Positions 19,320 to 28,410 of a DNA stretch of 64,000 bases are shown in pieces. The DNA lies in the NCBI RefSeq assembly GCF_011682045.1, contig NZ_VVIW01000013.1, positions 62,001 through 126,000 of the forward strand. Direction: 5' to 3'. The position numbers and the translations under genes were made by a program. The stretch's first letter is position 1. Each line of letters starts with the position of its first letter. A model generated the notes under the pieces. That model was given only the letters and a program-made list of their open reading frames with translations, had not been told where the DNA came from and ran no database searches. The DNA is from Massilia aquatica. GTDB lineage: Bacteria; Pseudomonadota; Gammaproteobacteria; Burkholderiales; Burkholderiaceae_D.

Positions 19320-20579
19320 TCAAGGCTGCGCGGCATACCCGCTCTCGGCCAGGAAGCGCTTGACATCCTTGACGTGCAAAATGTCGGCGATGGCCTGGCG
19401 CTTGTCCCTGGCCTGCTTGTAATACGCCTCGGTGATCCGGAACCCCATGAAGTAGCCCAGGTCGGCCGGGCGCTCGCCTTCCGGCGCGCCGCTGTACAGC
19501 CAGCGCTTGAAGTCGGTGCCATCCATCGCCGCCAGGAACTCCTTTTTCAGCTGCGCCTCATTGGCGTAGCCGTAGCGATAGATCGGCTCGTTGAACTTGC
19601 CCTTGGTCACCAGCGACGCGAGGAAATCGCACGACCCTTCCTTGATCGCATGACCGAGCAAGGTGTGCGGATCGAGCTGCTGCTGGAAATGCATCAGCTC
19701 ATGCGCGACGATCGACGGCAGCTTGTCGATATCGGCCGTGCCCGACAGCAGCCAGGGGTCGAGTTCGCCTGTCGGCACGCCCGGGCCGCGTCCATACATC
19801 TCGGTGCCGATCAGCAAGCCGTCCGCCGACGCGGTACCGCCGGCGCTCAGGCGGCCGATCACAAAGTAAATATCGGGGAACATCGCCGCCGGATACAGCG
19901 CCTTGAAATGCCGCATTTCCTCGCGGATCACCGGCTCGAACGAGGCCGCGCGCAGCGTATTGGCGCGGATGGCACGGTAATAGGCCGCGTGCTTTCCCAT
20001 GCGGCGAACCATGCTGGCGCCGCTGTTGATGCGCATGTGCACGAAGCCATGCAAACCGGCGCTGCCGGCATCGAGGTACTCGCGCTCGAGCAAGGCGGCC
20101 GGATCGGCCGCGCCGTCGAGCTTGTCGTACACGGTCCAGAAGCGCGCGATGTCGCTGGTGACGAAGCGGAAGTCTTCCGGGCTGGCATGGGCGGCGCGGT
20201 AGGCGCGGTCGTTGGCGCCGGCGCCGGCGACAATGCCGGCCCAGCGCGGGTCGGCGCGCAGCGAAACGAAATCGTCCTCCTGCTCCAGCTCATCGCGCAG
20301 GCGGAAGGCGCGTCTGGCGACGCCCTGCTCCAGGATCGCGAGCGCCTGCGCCTTCTGCCCGAGCCTGGCGGCCGTGGCCGCGTACTTATGGTCCATCGCC
20401 ATGCTGGCGTAACCGCTGTCGGCCGCCTTGCGGTAGGCGTCGAGCGCGGCCTGCGGCTTGTTGTCGTCGCGCGCCACGTCGGCCGCACTGGCCCAGGCGC
20501 GTCCCGACGTCTGGCCGTGGGCCGGGCCGGCCAGCGCCGAGACAAGCATGACGGCATGGAGGAGCGCGATTGTTTTCAT
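19320..20579 (-). CDS. exported zinc-metalloprotease-like protein (DUF2268-like)
   Basis: A 419-residue exported protein. Residues 1-23 form a signal peptide (IALLHAVMLVSALAGPAHG). A short helical repeat region (about 25-110, TPR-like ADVARDDNKPQAALDAYRKAADSG) precedes the catalytic part. The zinc motif VAHELMHFQ is near residue 293, followed by KEGSCDFLASL with a probable third ligand Glu, as in DUF2268 proteases. The start at 20579 has AAGGG six bases upstream, and starting there exposes the signal peptide. Substrate and role are unknown. It converges on the unknown gene ending at 19297. Confidence 0.75.
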   Translation of the reverse strand: MKTIALLHAVMLVSALAGPAHGQTSGRAWASAADVARDDNKPQAALDAYRKAADSGYASMAMDHKYAATAARLGQKAQALAILEQGVARRAFRLRDELEQEDDFVSLRADPRWAGIVAGAGANDRAYRAAHASPEDFRFVTSDIARFWTVYDKLDGAADPAALLEREYLDAGSAGLHGFVHMRINSGASMVRRMGKHAAYYRAIRANTLRAASFEPVIREEMRHFKALYPAAMFPDIYFVIGRLSAGGTASADGLLIGTEMYGRGPGVPTGELDPWLLSGTADIDKLPSIVAHELMHFQQQLDPHTLLGHAIKEGSCDFLASLVTKGKFNEPIYRYGYANEAQLKKEFLAAMDGTDFKRWLYSGAPEGERPADLGYFMGFRITEAYYKQARDKRQAIADILHVKDVKRFLAESGYAAQP

Positions 20580-20676
20580 GAACGACCCTTGAGCTGAGAA
20601 GGCGTCCATTATGGCAATTCCTGCGCCATGCGGGAATTGTTATACGACAGCTTGCCAAATCAAGGGGGCAGGACGG

Positions 20677-21463: not shown

Positions 21464-22333
21464 ATGCCTGCTCCAACCGCCATCGTCGTCCACGGCGGCG
21501 CCGGTACCTCGCGCGACAATGAAGATGGCTGCGCGCGCGCCGCCGGCCTGGCCCTGGCCGCCCTTGAACGCGGCGGCGACGCCCTCGACGCCGCCGTGGC
21601 GGCGGTCGTCTCGATGGAAGACGACGGCCGCTTCAACGCCGGCACCGGCTCGGTGCTGTGCCTGGACGGCCAGACCATCGAAATGGACGCCTCCGTCATG
21701 GATACCCACGGCCGCCTGGGCTGCGTCGCCTGCATCACGCAAGTACAAAATCCGGTGCTGGTGGCGCGCGCGGTGGCCGACAGCCCGCACTGGCTGCTGG
21801 CCGGCGACGGCGCCACCCGTTTTGCCCGCAATGGCGGCCACCCGCCCTACTGCCAGCCGACCGACAAAGCGCGCGCCGCTCATGCGCGCCTGATCGCGCA
21901 ACTGGGCGACCGGCCGGAATTCGCGCGCCTGTGGAACTACCAACGCGCGCTCGAAGAGAGCGGCGAGCGCGCCTGCGACACGGTGGGCGCAGTGGTGCGC
22001 GGCGCCGACGGCCACTTCGCCGTTGCAAGCTCGACTGGCGGCTCGGCCCCGTCGCTGCTGGGGCGGGTGGGCGACACGCCGATCATCGGCAGCGGCTTTT
22101 ACGCCGGCAGCGACGGCGCGGTGGCCGCGACCGGCATCGGCGAAAACATCGTGCGCCACCTGCTGGCCTACACCGTGTACCAGTGGATCGCCGCCGGCAC
22201 GCCCATCGAGCAGGCTGTGCAGCGCGGCATCGACCTGTTCGACCCGGCGGTGGCGGTCGGCCTGATCGCGGTCGGCAAAAGCGGCCACGCGGCGGTCAGC
22301 AACCGCCCCATGCCGCGCGCCATGATTTGCTGA
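21464..22333 (+). CDS. iaaA: isoaspartyl peptidase / L-asparaginase (Ntn hydrolase)
   Basis: A 289-residue self-processing Ntn hydrolase. AIVVHGGAGTSRD at the start, GRFNAGTGSVLCLDG near residue 65 and ERACDTVGAVVRG near 180 match the plant-type asparaginase family; the Thr in CDTVGA is the expected autocleavage nucleophile. Later GVGDT-like and TGIGENIVRHLLA segments follow. The start at 21464 has GGAG six bases upstream. In this context it should split beta-Asp-Arg dipeptides released from cyanophycin into aspartate and arginine. It opens the cyanophycin operon. Confidence 0.9.
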   Translation: MPAPTAIVVHGGAGTSRDNEDGCARAAGLALAALERGGDALDAAVAAVVSMEDDGRFNAGTGSVLCLDGQTIEMDASVMDTHGRLGCVACITQVQNPVLVARAVADSPHWLLAGDGATRFARNGGHPPYCQPTDKARAAHARLIAQLGDRPEFARLWNYQRALEESGERACDTVGAVVRGADGHFAVASSTGGSAPSLLGRVGDTPIIGSGFYAGSDGAVAATGIGENIVRHLLAYTVYQWIAAGTPIEQAVQRGIDLFDPAVAVGLIAVGKSGHAAVSNRPMPRAMIC

Positions 22334-22438
22334 CCCGCGTAATCGTTGTCCTACCCAAGCACAGCTTGGTCACCGATACGAGGCGCGCCGGGCGGCGACC
22401 ATAATGAGGCCTCTCTAGAAACCTGATCGCCCGCACCC

Positions 22439-23917
22439 ATGACCACCATGCAAAGCACCGTGTTCGCCACGCCGCACCTCGATGCCCCGCGCCAGAGCGC
22501 GCCCGCCACGACCAGCTGCCGCGCGCTGTACGACACCTTCTCCCAGGCCGACCTGGCCCCCGGCACCCATGCCGACGCCGAGGCCTATCTGGTCGGCCAG
22601 CTGGCGCGCGCCGCCGCCCATCCTTGCGACCTGCCCGACACCCCGGCCGGCCTGGATGGCTGGATCGCGCCGCGCGGGGCCGCCATCGGCGCCGAATACC
22701 AGCAATACCTGGCCGCGCGCCGCGATGGCGCCCCGCGCCGCTACTTCACCAGCAAGTCGCACGCGCTGTGCTTCCTGCGCTGCGTGGCCCCGACCAAACT
22801 GGTGGACGGCGCCTGGCTGTACAGCACCCTGCAACGCTGGCAGGAGAACGACTTCCGCCCGCTGGTCAAGACCTATGTCGAAGAACTGGGCGACGGCCTG
22901 CCCGACAAGAACCACGTCACCCTGTACCAGCGCCTGCTCGACAACCACGGCTGCGCCGACTGGGACGACCTGGGCGGCGCCCACTTCACCCAGGGCGCGC
23001 TGCAACTGGCGCTGGCCTACGCGGGCGACGCCTTCCTGCCCGAGATGATCGGCTATAACCTCGGCTACGAACAGCTGCCGCTGCACCTGCTCATCACCGC
23101 CTACGAATTGAACGAACTCGGCATCGACCCGTACTACTTCACCTTGCACATCACGGTCGACAATGGCTCGACCGGCCACGCGCGCGACGCGGTCGAGGCC
23201 CTGCAGCGGGTGATGGCGCGCGCCGCCAACCCGGCCGAATTCTACCGGCGCGTGCGCGAAGGCTACAAGCTCAATGAACTGGGCGAAAACACCGGTTCCG
23301 TGATCGCCTCCTTCGACCTGGAACAGGAACTGGTGCGCATCCTCGCGGCCAAGGCCGTGGTCGGGCAGAACATGCACAGCGATTATTGCCGCGTGGCCGG
23401 CAAGACCATCAACGCCTGGCTGGCCGATCCGGCGCAGATCCCGACCCTGCTGCGCGCGTTCGAAACCACCGGCTGGATCAAGCGCGGCGCCGCCCCGCAC
23501 GAAAGCCGCTTCTGGGGCCTGCTGCAAGGCGACCATGCCGAGATGTTCGGGGTGTTCTCAAGCTACGAACAGCAAGTGCTGGCCGACTGGATCGCCTCGC
23601 CGGCGCAAGAAGGCGACGCTGCTGCGGCCACGCCGCGCGTGGCCTCGTTCCGCGCGCGCCAGCGCGCCCTGGCCCCAGCCCGCAACGCGGCGCCGAAAGT
23701 CCATGGCGCGCGCGCCCTGATCCGCTACCCGTACGCCGGCCGGGCCGGCGAACACGAGGCCGAAAACGACCAGTTGCGCAACCTCGAACAAGCCGTGGCG
23801 CTGGCGCCGTCGACCAGCGCCGCCATGAAACTCCTGATCGCGCACATGTCGCCGGCGCGCCACCACACCCCCACCGGCCTGATGGCAACGCGCATGTTCG
23901 TGCGCCTGCTCGGCTGA
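22439..23917 (+). CDS. iron-containing redox enzyme (heme-oxygenase-like diiron fold)
   Basis: A 492-residue protein of the iron-containing redox enzyme family. The core is about 150-330, where PYYFTLHITVDNGSTGHARDA carries His and Asp/His residues typical of the family's metal site, preceded by GYNLGYEQLPLHLL. Members of this fold use a diiron centre for oxygenations such as N-oxidation or C-C cleavage. The N- and C-terminal parts (first 100 and last 120 residues) match nothing I recognise. It sits between isoaspartyl peptidase and a methyltransferase in the cyanophycin operon. Its substrate is unknown; a modified amino acid or peptide is a reasonable guess only. Confidence 0.78.
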   Translation: MTTMQSTVFATPHLDAPRQSAPATTSCRALYDTFSQADLAPGTHADAEAYLVGQLARAAAHPCDLPDTPAGLDGWIAPRGAAIGAEYQQYLAARRDGAPRRYFTSKSHALCFLRCVAPTKLVDGAWLYSTLQRWQENDFRPLVKTYVEELGDGLPDKNHVTLYQRLLDNHGCADWDDLGGAHFTQGALQLALAYAGDAFLPEMIGYNLGYEQLPLHLLITAYELNELGIDPYYFTLHITVDNGSTGHARDAVEALQRVMARAANPAEFYRRVREGYKLNELGENTGSVIASFDLEQELVRILAAKAVVGQNMHSDYCRVAGKTINAWLADPAQIPTLLRAFETTGWIKRGAAPHESRFWGLLQGDHAEMFGVFSSYEQQVLADWIASPAQEGDAAAATPRVASFRARQRALAPARNAAPKVHGARALIRYPYAGRAGEHEAENDQLRNLEQAVALAPSTSAAMKLLIAHMSPARHHTPTGLMATRMFVRLLG

Positions 23918-23940
23918 AACACTTTAACGACAGGACCCGC

Positions 23941-24951
23941 ATGAGCGCCTCCATCATCTCCATCGACGGCCACCGGCTCGACCAGGCACCGCCGCTCGGC
24001 ATTGCCAGCGACGAGCGCCGCGCCGCGCTATACGCGCTCGGCTGCGGCCTCAAGCAGCACGGCTACGCCTTCACCACCGTCACCCCGCTCACCCACAGCC
24101 GCGTCAACGCGCGCCTGGCAAATGGCTGGGCGCACGACCTGGCCGGCATTTTCGGCTGGAGCCGCGCCTTCAAGCCGGCCGTGGTCAACCCCACCCTCAT
24201 GGACCTGCTGCACGAGGCCGAGGTGGTCAACCACGACAACGGCATGCTGCGCAGCGTGCTGCGCGCCTCGACGCTCGATGGTCAGCTGTACCTGCATTCG
24301 GCCTACCCGACCAATGCGGCCGACGCCGTGTTCTTCGGTCCCGATACTTACCGCTTCGTGCGCGCCCTGCGCACCTCGCTGGCGGCGCGCACCCTGCCGG
24401 TGCGGCGCGCGGCGGACATCGGCTGCGGCGCCGGTCCCGGCGCCATCACCGTTGCGCTGGCCCATCCGGACGCCAGCGTGTTCGCGGTCGACATCAACCC
24501 GGCCGCGCTGGTGCTCACCGACGTCAATGCGCGCATCGCCGCAGTAAGCAACCTGACGCCGGTCGACAGCAACCTGCTGGCCGGCGTGGACGGACAGTTC
24601 GACCTGATCGTCGCCAACCCGCCCTACCTGATCGACCGCGAACAGCGCGCCTACCGCCACGGCGGCGGCGAACTGGGCGCCGGCCTGTCGGTGGCGATTG
24701 TCGATGAAGCCATCAAGCGCCTCGCACCCGGCGGCACCTTGATGCTGTACACCGGCGCGGCCATCGTCGCCAGCGCCGACCCGTTCCGCCAGGCGGTCGA
24801 ACCACGCCTGCGCGCGGCCGGTTTTCACTGGACCTACGACGAAATCGACCCCGACGTCTTTGGCGAAGAACTGGACGAAGCACCGTATGCCTACGCGGAC
24901 CGGATCGCGGCGGTGTGGCTGTGCGCCACGCGCCCGGTTGGTGCCGCATGA
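23941..24951 (+). CDS. class I SAM-dependent methyltransferase, HemK/PrmC-like
   Basis: A 336-residue methyltransferase. The SAM-binding motif ADIGCGAGPGAITVALA is near residue 160, VFAVDINPAAL follows, and the catalytic motif IVANPPYLID is near 222. The NPPY tetrapeptide is characteristic of enzymes that methylate amide or amino nitrogen, such as glutamine methylation by PrmC. The N-terminal 140 residues form a separate helical domain. AGGA is five bases upstream of ATG 23941. Its TGA overlaps the cyanophycinase start, so the two are coupled. The target is unknown. Confidence 0.82.
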   Translation: MSASIISIDGHRLDQAPPLGIASDERRAALYALGCGLKQHGYAFTTVTPLTHSRVNARLANGWAHDLAGIFGWSRAFKPAVVNPTLMDLLHEAEVVNHDNGMLRSVLRASTLDGQLYLHSAYPTNAADAVFFGPDTYRFVRALRTSLAARTLPVRRAADIGCGAGPGAITVALAHPDASVFAVDINPAALVLTDVNARIAAVSNLTPVDSNLLAGVDGQFDLIVANPPYLIDREQRAYRHGGGELGAGLSVAIVDEAIKRLAPGGTLMLYTGAAIVASADPFRQAVEPRLRAAGFHWTYDEIDPDVFGEELDEAPYAYADRIAAVWLCATRPVGAA

Positions 24952-25802
24952 GTGAACCCGCATACGAACAGCGCCGCGGCAGTCTCCTGATCATCGGCGG
25001 CGGCGAAGACCGCGAAGACGACATGCAGGTGCTGGAGCGCTTCGTCGCCCTGTGCGGCGGGCCGGACAAACGCATCGTGGTGCTCACCGCCGCCAGCCGC
25101 GTGCCCGAAAAAATGTGGGCCATCTACGACGCCGCCTTCGGCGGCATGGGGGTGGAACGCCGCAGCGAAGTGCGCGTAACCAGCCGCCTTGAAGCCAACG
25201 ACACCGCCATGGCGGCCGACCTGGCGCAGGCGGACGGCATTTTCATTACCGGCGGCGACCAGAAACGGCTGCTGGCGCTGATCGGTGGAACCAGATTGGA
25301 CGAGGCCCTGCACGCGGCCCTGGCGCGCGGCGCCTGCATCGCCGGCACCAGCGCGGGCGCGTCGGCCATGTCCGCGCACATGCTGGCCGACGGCAAAGCC
25401 GACCTGCATCCCGAAAAAGGCGCGGTCAGCCTGGGGGCCGGCATCGGCTTCGTGCAGCGCGTGGTCATCGACCAGCACTTCTCGCAGCGCCAGCGCCTGG
25501 CGCGCCTGCTGACGGTGGTGGCGCAGAACCCCTACCTGCTGGGCGTGGGCATCGACGAAGACACCGCGCTGCTGATCGAAGGCGGCGGCGGCATCGAAAT
25601 CCTGGGCGCCGGCGCGGTCACCGTGATCGACGGGCGCCACATGGTCTCGAACGTGGCCGACATCCGCAACCGCGCCGTGCCCGAAATGGTGGACGTGCGG
25701 CTGCACCTGCTGCCGTCCGGTTCGCGCTACGGCGCGGATGGCGACAGCGCCACGCCGGCCGCGCTGGCCGACTTTTTACATATCGTTACCAACATCGCCT
25801 GA
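24948..25802 (+). CDS. cphB: cyanophycinase
   Basis: Serine exopeptidase that breaks cyanophycin into beta-Asp-Arg dipeptides, 284 residues. The peptidase S51 features are clear: LLIIGGGEDRED at the start, ITGGDQKRLL, the nucleophile elbow GTSAGASAM near residue 137 and IDQHFSQRQRLARLL with the catalytic His. GIDEDTALLIE follows. Size matches the cytoplasmic family. It starts inside the stop of the methyltransferase gene (ATGA). It acts with the isoaspartyl peptidase at the operon start and opposes the synthetase downstream. Confidence 0.93.
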   Translation: MSEPAYEQRRGSLLIIGGGEDREDDMQVLERFVALCGGPDKRIVVLTAASRVPEKMWAIYDAAFGGMGVERRSEVRVTSRLEANDTAMAADLAQADGIFITGGDQKRLLALIGGTRLDEALHAALARGACIAGTSAGASAMSAHMLADGKADLHPEKGAVSLGAGIGFVQRVVIDQHFSQRQRLARLLTVVAQNPYLLGVGIDEDTALLIEGGGGIEILGAGAVTVIDGRHMVSNVADIRNRAVPEMVDVRLHLLPSGSRYGADGDSATPAALADFLHIVTNIA

Positions 25803-25818
25803 TTATCTCCTGACTATC

Positions 25819-28410
25819 ATGAACATCATCGAACAGCGCGTGCTGCGCGGCCCCAATCGCTGGTCCCGGCTGACCTGCCTGCAAACCATGATCGACAGCG
25901 GCGACTCGCCCGCCATCGAGCCCCGCTTCGGCGCCGCCTTGCTGGCGCAACTGCCCGGCATGGCCGGCCGGCGCAGCTGTACAACGCTGGCGCAGGCGGC
26001 CGAACAGGCGGCATTGGAACTGCAATCCATGGCCGGCACGCCGGTCGGCTTCGCCCTGACCAGCAAGGTCGATGCCACGCGCTGGCGCATCGTGGTGGCC
26101 TACCAGCGCGAGCAGGTCGCCGTCGAGGCCATGGCGCTGGCGCTCGATATGGTGCGGGCGGCCGCGCGCGGCGAGGCGCCCGACTGGACCGAACGCCTGG
26201 ACGCACTGAAGGAAGTTGCGCAACGCGGCGCCATGGGCACCAGCACGGCGGCGGTGGTGAACGCGGCGCAGGTACGCGGCATTCCCACCGTGCGCCTGAC
26301 CGACGAAGCGAATCTGTTCCAGCTGGGCTGGGGCAGCCGCCAGAAGCGCCTGCAGGCGACCGTCACCGGCGCCACGTCCACCATCGCGGTCGGCATTGCC
26401 AGCAACAAGCAATTGACCAAGACCCTGCTCGAACAAGGCGGCATTCCAGTGCCCAAGGGCGGCGTGGCCGCCAGCGCGGATGAAGCGGTGGCGCTGGCCG
26501 CGCGCCTGCGCTTCCCGGTCACCCTCAAGCCGCTCGACGGCAACCAGGGCAAGGGCGTCACCACCGAATGCGCCGATGCCGACAGCGTGCGCATCGCCTT
26601 CGAGTTCGCGCGCCAGTACGGGCGCCGCGTCATCGTCGAGCGCTTCATCGCCGGGCGCGACTACCGCCTGCTGGTCACCGGCGGCAAGCTCGCCGCCGCC
26701 TCGCTGCGGCGCCCGCCGTCGATCACCGGCGATGGCGCGGCCACCGTGCAGCAGCTGGTCGACCAGGAAAACCGCAATCCGGCGCGCGGCGAAGGCCACG
26801 CCAACATCCTCACGCGCCTGCGCCTCGATGAGCTGGCGCTGGCGCTGCTGGCCGAACAGGGGTTTGCGCTCGACTACGTGGTGCCGGACGGCGTCGAGGT
26901 GCAATTGCGCGGCAACGCCAACCTGTCCACCGGCGGCACCGCCGAAGACGTGACCGACCTGGTGCACCCGGCCACGCGCGAGATGTGCATCCGCGCCGCG
27001 CGGATCATCGGCCTGGACGTGGCCGGCATCGACGTCATTTGCAGCGACATTGCGCTGTGCCTGCGCGAGCAGCGCGGCGCCCTGATCGAAGTCAACGCCG
27101 CACCCGGCATCCGCATGCACGAATACCCGAGCCAGGGCCAGGCCCGCAACGCCGGCGACGCCATCGTCGACGCCATGTTCGGCCAGGGCGACGGCCGCAT
27201 TCCCGTCATTGCGGTGACCGGCACCAACGGCAAGACCACCACCTCGCTGATGATCGCGCACGCCGCGCGCCTCGCGGGCATGTGCACGGGCGTGACCACC
27301 ACCGAGGGCGTCTTCATCGACGGTCACCGGATCATCGACGGCGACTGCGCCGGCTACCATTCGGCGCGTACCCTCTTGACCACCCCGACGGTCGATATCG
27401 CGGTGCTGGAAACGGCGCGCGGTGGCATCCTCAAACGCGGGCTGGCGTTCGACCGCTGCACGGTGGCGGTGGTATTGAACGTGTCGGCCGACCACCTGGG
27501 TCTCGACGGCGTGGCGACGGTGGAGGAACTGGCGGGCGTGAAAGCCGTGGTGGCTAACGCCGCCTCGCGCGCGGTGGTGCTCAATGCCGACGACCGCCTG
27601 TGCGTGGCGATGAGCGCGCAGGTGCCGGCCGATGTGGAGCGCATTTTCTTTTCGATGGAGCCGGAAAACCCGGTCCTGCTGCGCCACCTCGATAACGGTG
27701 GCCGCGCCGCCTACTACCAGGACAATGCGCTGATCCTGGCCGATGGCTCGCGCAGGGCCGGATTGCTGCGCGCCGCGCGCATGCCGTCGAGCATGCAGGG
27801 CCACGCGCGCTACAACATCGCCAACGCGCTCGCCGCATCGGCCGCGCTGATGGGGGCCGACTTTACCCACGCGCAGATCGCGCTGGCCTTGTCGACCTTT
27901 GTGTCGGACGGCGCCAACAACCCGCTGCGCTCGAACATCTACAGCGCGCAGGGCGTGACCATCGTGGTCGACTACGCGCACAACCCGGCCGCCTACGCGG
28001 CCATGGCGTCGATGGCGCGGTCGCTCTCGGGCGGACGGCGCGTCGCGGTGCTCACCTGCCCCGGCGACCGGCGCGACGCCGACCTGCTCGACATCGGCCA
28101 CACCTGCGCCGACGGTTTTGATGAACTGTTCGTGTACGAAGCCGATCCGCGCGGACGCGCCAGCGGCGAGACGGCGCAAAAAATCCTCGACGGCGCGCGC
28201 CGCGCCGGCAAGGAGGACCATCTGCTGCACGCCATCGTGCCGGTCAGCGATGCCTTTGCGGCGGCCATGGCCTGCTGCCGCCCGGGCGACGTGCTGCTGT
28301 TCGCCTGTGGATCAAGCGCCACCGCCCAGCGCGAAACGGCGCGCTACGTCGATTCTGTGCCTGCGGCCCCGGCGACAAGCCCGGGCCATGCGGCGACCGT
28401 GCCGCTCTGA
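25819..28410 (+). CDS. cphA: cyanophycin synthetase
   Basis: Makes the storage polymer multi-L-arginyl-poly-L-aspartate using ATP. The 863-residue protein has the full three-part layout: an N domain (about 1-160), an ATP-grasp domain for Asp addition (about 190-450, TLKPLDGNQGKGVTT, VERFIAGRDYRLLV, DVAGIDVI and IEVNAAPGIRMHEYP) and a Mur-ligase domain for Arg addition with an intact P-loop GTNGKTTTSL near 470. Both ATP sites are present, so it is CphA1-type rather than the shortened CphA2. The start lies 16 bases after cphB without a clear ribosome-binding sequence. No second cphA paralogue is adjacent. Confidence 0.94.
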   Translation: MNIIEQRVLRGPNRWSRLTCLQTMIDSGDSPAIEPRFGAALLAQLPGMAGRRSCTTLAQAAEQAALELQSMAGTPVGFALTSKVDATRWRIVVAYQREQVAVEAMALALDMVRAAARGEAPDWTERLDALKEVAQRGAMGTSTAAVVNAAQVRGIPTVRLTDEANLFQLGWGSRQKRLQATVTGATSTIAVGIASNKQLTKTLLEQGGIPVPKGGVAASADEAVALAARLRFPVTLKPLDGNQGKGVTTECADADSVRIAFEFARQYGRRVIVERFIAGRDYRLLVTGGKLAAASLRRPPSITGDGAATVQQLVDQENRNPARGEGHANILTRLRLDELALALLAEQGFALDYVVPDGVEVQLRGNANLSTGGTAEDVTDLVHPATREMCIRAARIIGLDVAGIDVICSDIALCLREQRGALIEVNAAPGIRMHEYPSQGQARNAGDAIVDAMFGQGDGRIPVIAVTGTNGKTTTSLMIAHAARLAGMCTGVTTTEGVFIDGHRIIDGDCAGYHSARTLLTTPTVDIAVLETARGGILKRGLAFDRCTVAVVLNVSADHLGLDGVATVEELAGVKAVVANAASRAVVLNADDRLCVAMSAQVPADVERIFFSMEPENPVLLRHLDNGGRAAYYQDNALILADGSRRAGLLRAARMPSSMQGHARYNIANALAASAALMGADFTHAQIALALSTFVSDGANNPLRSNIYSAQGVTIVVDYAHNPAAYAAMASMARSLSGGRRVAVLTCPGDRRDADLLDIGHTCADGFDELFVYEADPRGRASGETAQKILDGARRAGKEDHLLHAIVPVSDAFAAAMACCRPGDVLLFACGSSATAQRETARYVDSVPAAPATSPGHAATVPL

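Follow-up and report, generated by a model that had tools for sequence, protein, structure and literature searches.

An operon for cyanophycin turnover in Massilia aquatica also carries genes for a heme-oxygenase-like diiron protein (HDO) and a methyltransferase (MT). It lies at positions 21,464 to 28,410 of a 64,000-nucleotide stretch (contig NZ_VVIW01000013.1, positions 62,001 to 126,000), which was analyzed as a whole and is called the window below. We propose, with somewhat less than even confidence, that HDO and MT form a tailoring module which in Massilia, Duganella and their kin has been joined by a copy of the cyanophycin synthetase (CphA) operon, leading to an arginine-derived small molecule. 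The composition of the operon and the loss of one half of CphA in related loci point to such a molecule and not to storage alone. The observations concern the linkage of HDO with cyanophycin genes, its co-occurrence with MT, the domain loss in CphA, selection on the remaining half and the predicted fold of HDO.

The five open reading frames, iaaA-HDO-MT-cphB-cphA, are all on the + strand. The coordinates and families given in the first-pass annotation were confirmed, and the tight coupling that it had described between MT and cphB proved to be an overlap of 4 bases. The features are as follows:

21464..22333, + strand: iaaA, isoaspartyl aminopeptidase or plant-type asparaginase, 289 residues (PF01112, 2.4e-67; ATG at 21464)
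22439..23917, + strand: HDO, heme-oxygenase-like diiron protein, 492 residues (PF14518, 2e-27)
22883..22915, + strand: E149 to H159 of HDO, likely metal ligands of helix 1 (E-x9-H)
23147..23179, + strand: H237, D241 and H247 of HDO, likely metal ligands of helix 3 (H-x3-D-x5-H)
23941..24951, + strand: MT, class I methyltransferase with an NPPY motif, HemK-related, 336 residues (PF05175, 2.6e-15)
24948..25802, + strand: cphB, cyanophycinase, 284 residues, overlapping MT by 4 bases (TIGR02069, 255.4 bits, cut-off 126.6)
25819..28410, + strand: cphA, full-length cyanophycin synthetase, 863 residues (TIGR02068, 923.5 bits, cut-off 850)

The intergenic spacings are, in order, 105, 23, −4 and 16 bases. 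To examine the linkage of HDO with these genes, we used a family sample of 392 genomes, 136 of which contained an HDO match (126 at E<1e-100), and searched the surroundings of 127 strong HDO loci, the window excluded, with the five window proteins. Genes in the loci were called with a purpose-written codon-based caller, and operons were defined from our own gene calls as genes on the same strand with gaps <350 bases. cphA or cphB was found within 2 kb of HDO in 80 of the 127 loci and within 5 kb in 88, and MT within 5 kb in 28. The association with cphA and cphB was thus conserved for HDO, so that for this gene the refuting outcome named in the first-pass annotation did not arise; MT was often unlinked though present in the genome. 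The window-like order HDO-MT-cphB-cphA recurred in seven loci, with iaaA in front in five of them, which shows that the gene order is not due to chance; an alternative order, HDO-MT-iaaA-cphB-cphA, was found in nine other loci. A fixed five-gene unit can be rejected, because all four partners lay within 8 kb of HDO in only 16 of the 127 loci and the gene order was variable. HDO was present in every one of the 89 family genomes in which the best CphA matched that of the window at E<1e-230; CphA as such was widespread (338/392 at E<=1e-120). On a tree of HDO (138 rows, long branches flagged), linkage with MT corresponded to 10 changes.

In one genus, the genes upstream of HDO-cphA on the same strand encoded a BcaP-like amino-acid permease (44 loci, within ~4 kb in 42), a nicotinamidase-like hydrolase (24 loci) and a pyruvate-oxidase-like enzyme (16 loci), none of which is a clear pointer to arginine. 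The last of these, a thiamine pyrophosphate enzyme, is unlikely to be CeaS or 2-ketoarginine decarboxylase, since pyruvate-oxidase-type enzymes gave far higher scores. Eight genomes of one genus (L056-L063) carry a paralogue that is 35-43% identical to part of HDO, and these 8 loci of weak matches were excluded from the linkage count; seven of the eight genomes were without strong HDO, MT and window-type CphA, and several have common surroundings of their own. PF14518-like matches with ~30% identity were also located within open frames of ~1250 residues in L192 (G192) and G181.

We compared the occurrence of HDO (E<1e-100) and MT (E<=1e-60) across the family sample. Both were present in 104 of the 392 genomes, HDO only in 22, MT only in 2 and neither in 264; in this count a weak HDO match, seen in 10 genomes, was scored as HDO-negative. 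HDO and MT thus behave as a pair. In one genus, for which the 54 species compared were those listed with a CphA match and 36 genomes without one, only partly listed, were left aside, MT was found in 21 of 26 HDO genomes and in none of the 28 others. The P-values for co-occurrence are inflated by the kinship of the genomes. In many genomes MT was located elsewhere on the chromosome, apart from HDO; among 20 MT regions fetched, a short CphA adjoined MT in one and iaaA in one.

The pair also occurred without cyanophycin genes, in other genera and orders. In the class sample (369 genomes, source genome included), strong HDO was found in two other genomes, G553 and G463, with weak matches in two more; full-length MT was present in G553 and G463 only among the other class genomes, and adjoined HDO in both. 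HDO and MT but no full-length CphA were found in G553 and G463 (both 100% complete), G031 (91%) and G066 (81%), in which the best matches to the window CphA were partial (29-33% identity). The source genome itself contains a second iaaA-cphB-cphA operon without HDO and MT (L190, contig 22). Both results contradict the claim that the two genes are an extension of cyanophycin metabolism as such. A tandem cphA pair (L191, contig 55) was also present in the source genome, giving three cyanophycin loci in total with the window operon. We searched the neighbor sample for a third gene shared by HDO-MT outside cyanophycin loci and found none.

The two family genomes with MT only both contained a different PF14518 protein, HDO2, or pieces resembling it. 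In L212 the order was HDO2-MT-ATP-grasp-like-GNAT-MFS, and in G086 HDO2-like and ATP-grasp-like gene pieces were located on the MT contig. Similarly, in G417, a third genome of the class sample, MT was split over contig ends and adjoined a PF14518 protein that differs from HDO and is shorter. GNAT and MFS genes related to those of L212 adjoined HDO-MT in a Nevskia metagenome-assembled genome and one of the two MTs in G354. The ATP-grasp assignment in the HDO2-MT sets was weak: two of them gave E 0.001-0.003 and a third gave no match. Because the profile comparison of HDO with this second PF14518 family gave E 0.35, their kinship is indicated by the common Pfam domain. Members of the MT family were also observed in cluster-like sets of varying make-up (L212:4679-9866, L195, L008, L218 and L220) that include the second PF14518 protein, an ATP-grasp-like protein, a PF13444 GNAT, a PF01553 acyltransferase, a luciferase-like monooxygenase and an MFS transporter, and that possibly represent an undescribed amino-acid or aminolipid cluster.

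The state of CphA itself provides a further line of evidence. According to a study of CphA1, the ATP-grasp (G) domain adds aspartate and the Mur-ligase (M) domain adds arginine (PMC9262961). We scored the motifs of both halves against the window CphA in 141 aligned copies, from which those at locus ends or <380 aa had been excluded. Loss or degradation of the G domain beside a preserved M domain was seen in 20 of the 96 copies from operons with HDO and/or MT, compared with 0 of 39 from operons with cphB/iaaA only (Fisher P = 9e-4, kinship ignored). Among the latter 39, one was a broken piece of 385 aa without M, and two kept G intact but had a truncated M. Three of six copies in no such operon also lacked G and retained M, and each of them faces the operon that carries HDO at its locus. 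The losses were in-frame, removing window-CphA residues 182-443 in L137, 214-456 in L141 and 182-419 in L183, whose gene order is that of the window. A tree built from 137 M domains requires at least eight changes in the state of G, with low support within some groups, and the shortened CphA from the HDO-MT operon of L137 was nested inside the cphB/iaaA clade.

For shortened copies, dN/dS of the M part was 0.03-0.20 in 8 pairs, compared with 0.04-0.09 in three intact pairs, and the presumed active-site D-H of this domain (D585-H586 of SuCphA1 in our mapping) was kept in 23 of 23 copies with a lost or degraded G. Such sparing of the M half is not expected from plain decay of a useless gene. The opposite loss, an intact ATP-grasp with a truncated Mur-ligase half (715-755 aa), was observed in L097, L138 and L170; in L097 and L138 this copy faces one with the G loss, so that complementary halves stand at one locus. 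At these two loci the M-truncated copy resembles CphA2 in outline.

In the window, CphA is complete. It exceeded both cyanophycin synthetase cut-offs (923.5 against 850 for residues 2-833, and 938.8 against 877 for residues 1-837), and its ATP-grasp and Mur-ligase motifs could be aligned to the solved CphA1 (PDB 7wac). The N-domain primer site, HxxEH in the CphA1 study (PMC9262961), reads QAAEQ from residue 59 and so departs from the motif; this site was variable in the other CphA copies as well. The position that we align with the G-site histidine (H267 of SuCphA1) holds glutamine in the window CphA, and the same residue occurs in 102 of the 116 copies whose G domain is intact.

We then considered the two proteins of the module. 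All 17 HDO members examined matched PF14518, and the best VIA rows for the HDO structure model, which has a heme-oxygenase-like helical fold, were themselves HDOs. The match covers a fold of the N-oxygenase type over residues ~18-298 and barely extends to the C-terminal ~190 residues. RohS, HrmI and SznF made up the top eleven Foldseek matches and the top eleven VIA rows; FlcD, BesC, HamA, CADD, PolF, AetD and heme oxygenase were all ranked below them by VIA. For RohS, HrmI and SznF the aligned range started at model residue 15-22, whereas most of the remaining HDOs listed aligned from 62-70 onwards, which indicates that the N-terminal helical extension of N-oxygenase HDOs is present in our model. 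However, an early start was not exclusive to N-oxygenases (FlcD, 18; one PolF row, 6), and identity to RohS and HrmI in the aligned part was 14-15%. HDO superfamily members bind metal through three histidines and three carboxylates on helices 1-3. Candidate metal ligands in HDO (E149, H159, E202/E211/E223/E226, H237, D241 and H247, with four alternative glutamates in helix 2) were kept in 129-138 of 138 alignment rows: E149 in 129, H159 in 135, and H237, D241 and H247 in 130 each, the remainder being mostly gaps. A profile match to RohS, though weak (E 0.27), covers the E149-H159 stretch, and model confidence was low at residues 234-244. Because heme oxygenase ranked far below the diiron N-oxygenases, we rejected a heme enzyme.

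For MT, the NPPY motif was present within the class I methyltransferase domain, as in HemK/PrmC, and was conserved in five of six aligned rows including the window (the sixth has NPPF). This motif is typical of enzymes that methylate planar nitrogens. The best solved relative was HemK (5.6e-10), and the structure model had a pLDDT of 66.3. Both HemK-type models scored below their cut-offs (TIGR03534, 69.4 against 199.1; TIGR00536, 61.5 against 115.5), and the release-factor methyltransferase PrmC could accordingly be rejected as the identity of MT.

From these observations we infer possible substrates, reactions and a product. HDO and MT would constitute a conserved module of two enzymes without a fixed tie to the cyanophycin operon, which in Massilia, Duganella and kin appears to have acquired a CphA operon copy. 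CphB and IaaA may free β-Asp-Arg and arginine. Arginine or β-Asp-Arg is suggested as the substrate by the fold, the methyltransferase pairing, the arginine-polymer operon and the arginine ligase half. Judging from its fold, the most likely reaction of HDO is N-oxygenation of arginine or an arginine dipeptide at an amino or guanidino nitrogen, and the NPPY motif suggests that MT most likely N- or O-methylates the same small molecule. The M half of CphA could then attach arginine, whether unmodified, oxidized or methylated, to an aspartate-like carboxylate. In lineages whose CphA lacks the ATP-grasp half, the end product would probably be a small isopeptide and no polymer, while the complete synthetase of the window may serve both a small product and polymer. 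Modification of the polymer, processing of the dipeptide and a derived small molecule had all been offered as roles in the first-pass annotation; the last is supported by the finding that CphA has repeatedly lost its chain-building domain. More speculatively, and as a possibility to which we give less credence, CphA repeatedly and independently became a stand-alone arginine ligase through loss of the domain that polymerizes aspartate and, with an N-oxygenase and a methyltransferase, produces a new class of cyanophycin-derived arginine isopeptides, N-oxidized and methylated, that act as signals, metal binders or antimetabolites.

Several results weigh against the proposed arginine-derived product, and we consider them here together with the alternatives. 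With regard to linkage, 29 of the 127 HDO loci had neither cyanophycin genes nor MT inside 5 kb, no MT match was found in 22 of 126 HDO genomes, and the core reaction of HDO-MT is independent of CphA, as shown by the genomes without full-length CphA. Moreover, the loci are kin, and linkage with cyanophycin genes amounts to 6 changes on the HDO tree. The cphB/iaaA control copies form nearly one clade on the M-domain tree (2 changes). Purifying selection acts as well on what is left of the N/G part in shortened copies (dN/dS 0.09-0.36; intact copies 0.08-0.13), and in the pair L094/L103 it evolved no faster (0.16) than the M part (0.20). HDO-MT could be part of an unrelated pathway that is co-located through a shared nitrogen or arginine response, with the ATP-grasp loss reflecting decay of a redundant copy. 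The small number of independent linkage events would fit this explanation, as would the differing surroundings of the cyanophycin-free pairs, which share no common neighbor in the sample, and the ordinary second CphA copy that is often nearby. However, it sits poorly with purifying selection on the M part, with the universal retention of D-H in the G-less copies and with the presence of HDO in every genome with the window CphA type, and we consider it unlikely.

With regard to chemistry, the fold does not reveal the reaction. The Foldseek E-values were weak (best 3.7e-3, none <1e-3), and only one of five HDO structure models was of good quality. The usual helix-3 spacing is H-x3-D-x2-H, from which the H-x3-D-x5-H of HDO differs. 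An alternative, which we rank next and regard as rather unlikely, is that HDO oxidizes carbon in arginine or an arginine peptide as a desaturase, C-C cleaving or alkyne-forming enzyme, in the manner of BesC or MboA. On an Arg/Cit tripeptide built by ATP-grasp ligases, MboA is reported to form an alkyne at the C-terminal residue, and its ligands 172, 176 and 181 likewise show a long helix-3 spacing (PMC13185094). FlcD (Z 14.2) and BesC (Z 12.1) were ranked below RohS, HrmI and SznF, which speaks against this alternative; the absence of MboA from the 50 VIA entries listed carries no weight for or against.

Finally, the ATP-grasp domain was retained in 76 of the 96 CphA copies of HDO/MT operons, that of the window included, so that polymer may still be made. 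HDO and MT might instead modify the arginine side chains of cyanophycin, or arginine before its incorporation, to give an altered storage polymer; the frequent presence of cphB and iaaA beside them is compatible with this idea. Because the chain-building domain was lost repeatedly from CphA in these very operons, and because HDO-MT is found where full-length CphA is absent, we judge this the least probable of the three.

If the proposal of an arginine-derived small molecule is true, a storage polymer would be tied to specialized metabolism, with storage enzymes doubling as arginine supply and ligase, and the operon offers a testable route into new N-oxidized arginine chemistry. The repeated half loss would be a natural experiment in turning a polymerase into a small-molecule ligase, and it warns that a CphA match need not mean cyanophycin. 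Around the operon, a gene for a GldB/DUF2268-like putative Zn protease lies upstream (19320-20609, − strand), and a scan for promoters and terminators gave window signals no richer than those of shuffled sequence. Among the named relatives found, Massilia mucilaginosa CCM 8733 was the closest, with an HDO 94% identical to that of the window.

Among known systems, RohS, which acts in azomycin biosynthesis, and HrmI, which N-oxygenates lysine, share the fold of HDO including the N-terminal helices and are its best structural matches. They differ from HDO in their low identity, in lacking its additional C-terminal ~190 residues and in their gene surroundings. SznE/SznF of streptozotocin biosynthesis offer another comparison: SznF has a cupin domain, and no cupin family was found among the Pfam families (up to E 0.1) of the 17 HDO members; here MT is HemK-like, and HDO and MT are linked to CphA. 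The substrate of SznF is N-omega-methyl-L-arginine (PMC13108848). The mangotoxin system likewise places an HDO, MboA, alongside amino-acid ligases and an arginine-containing peptide, but its ligases are of the ATP-grasp type, whereas here this place is taken by CphA or its M half. In the same report, 1447 HDOs near ATP-grasp ligases were assigned to at least 25 cluster types (PMC13185094); its main text mentions neither cyanophycin nor a methyltransferase, and the HDOs linked to cyanophycin genes may be among these types. Our literature search, which covered few subscription papers, gave no description of a cyanophycin-linked HDO-MT module among the entries listed. The closest precedent for the operon is the iaaA-cphB-cphA clusters described by Sharon and Schmeing (2023), in which the same three turnover genes are grouped. 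In the part of that study available, no oxidase is mentioned, whereas the window operon has HDO, and a recognizable cyanophycinase is reported in only 2.8% of CphA1-encoding β-proteobacterial genomes (PMC10206079). Unlike most of those genomes, the window operon contains cphB.

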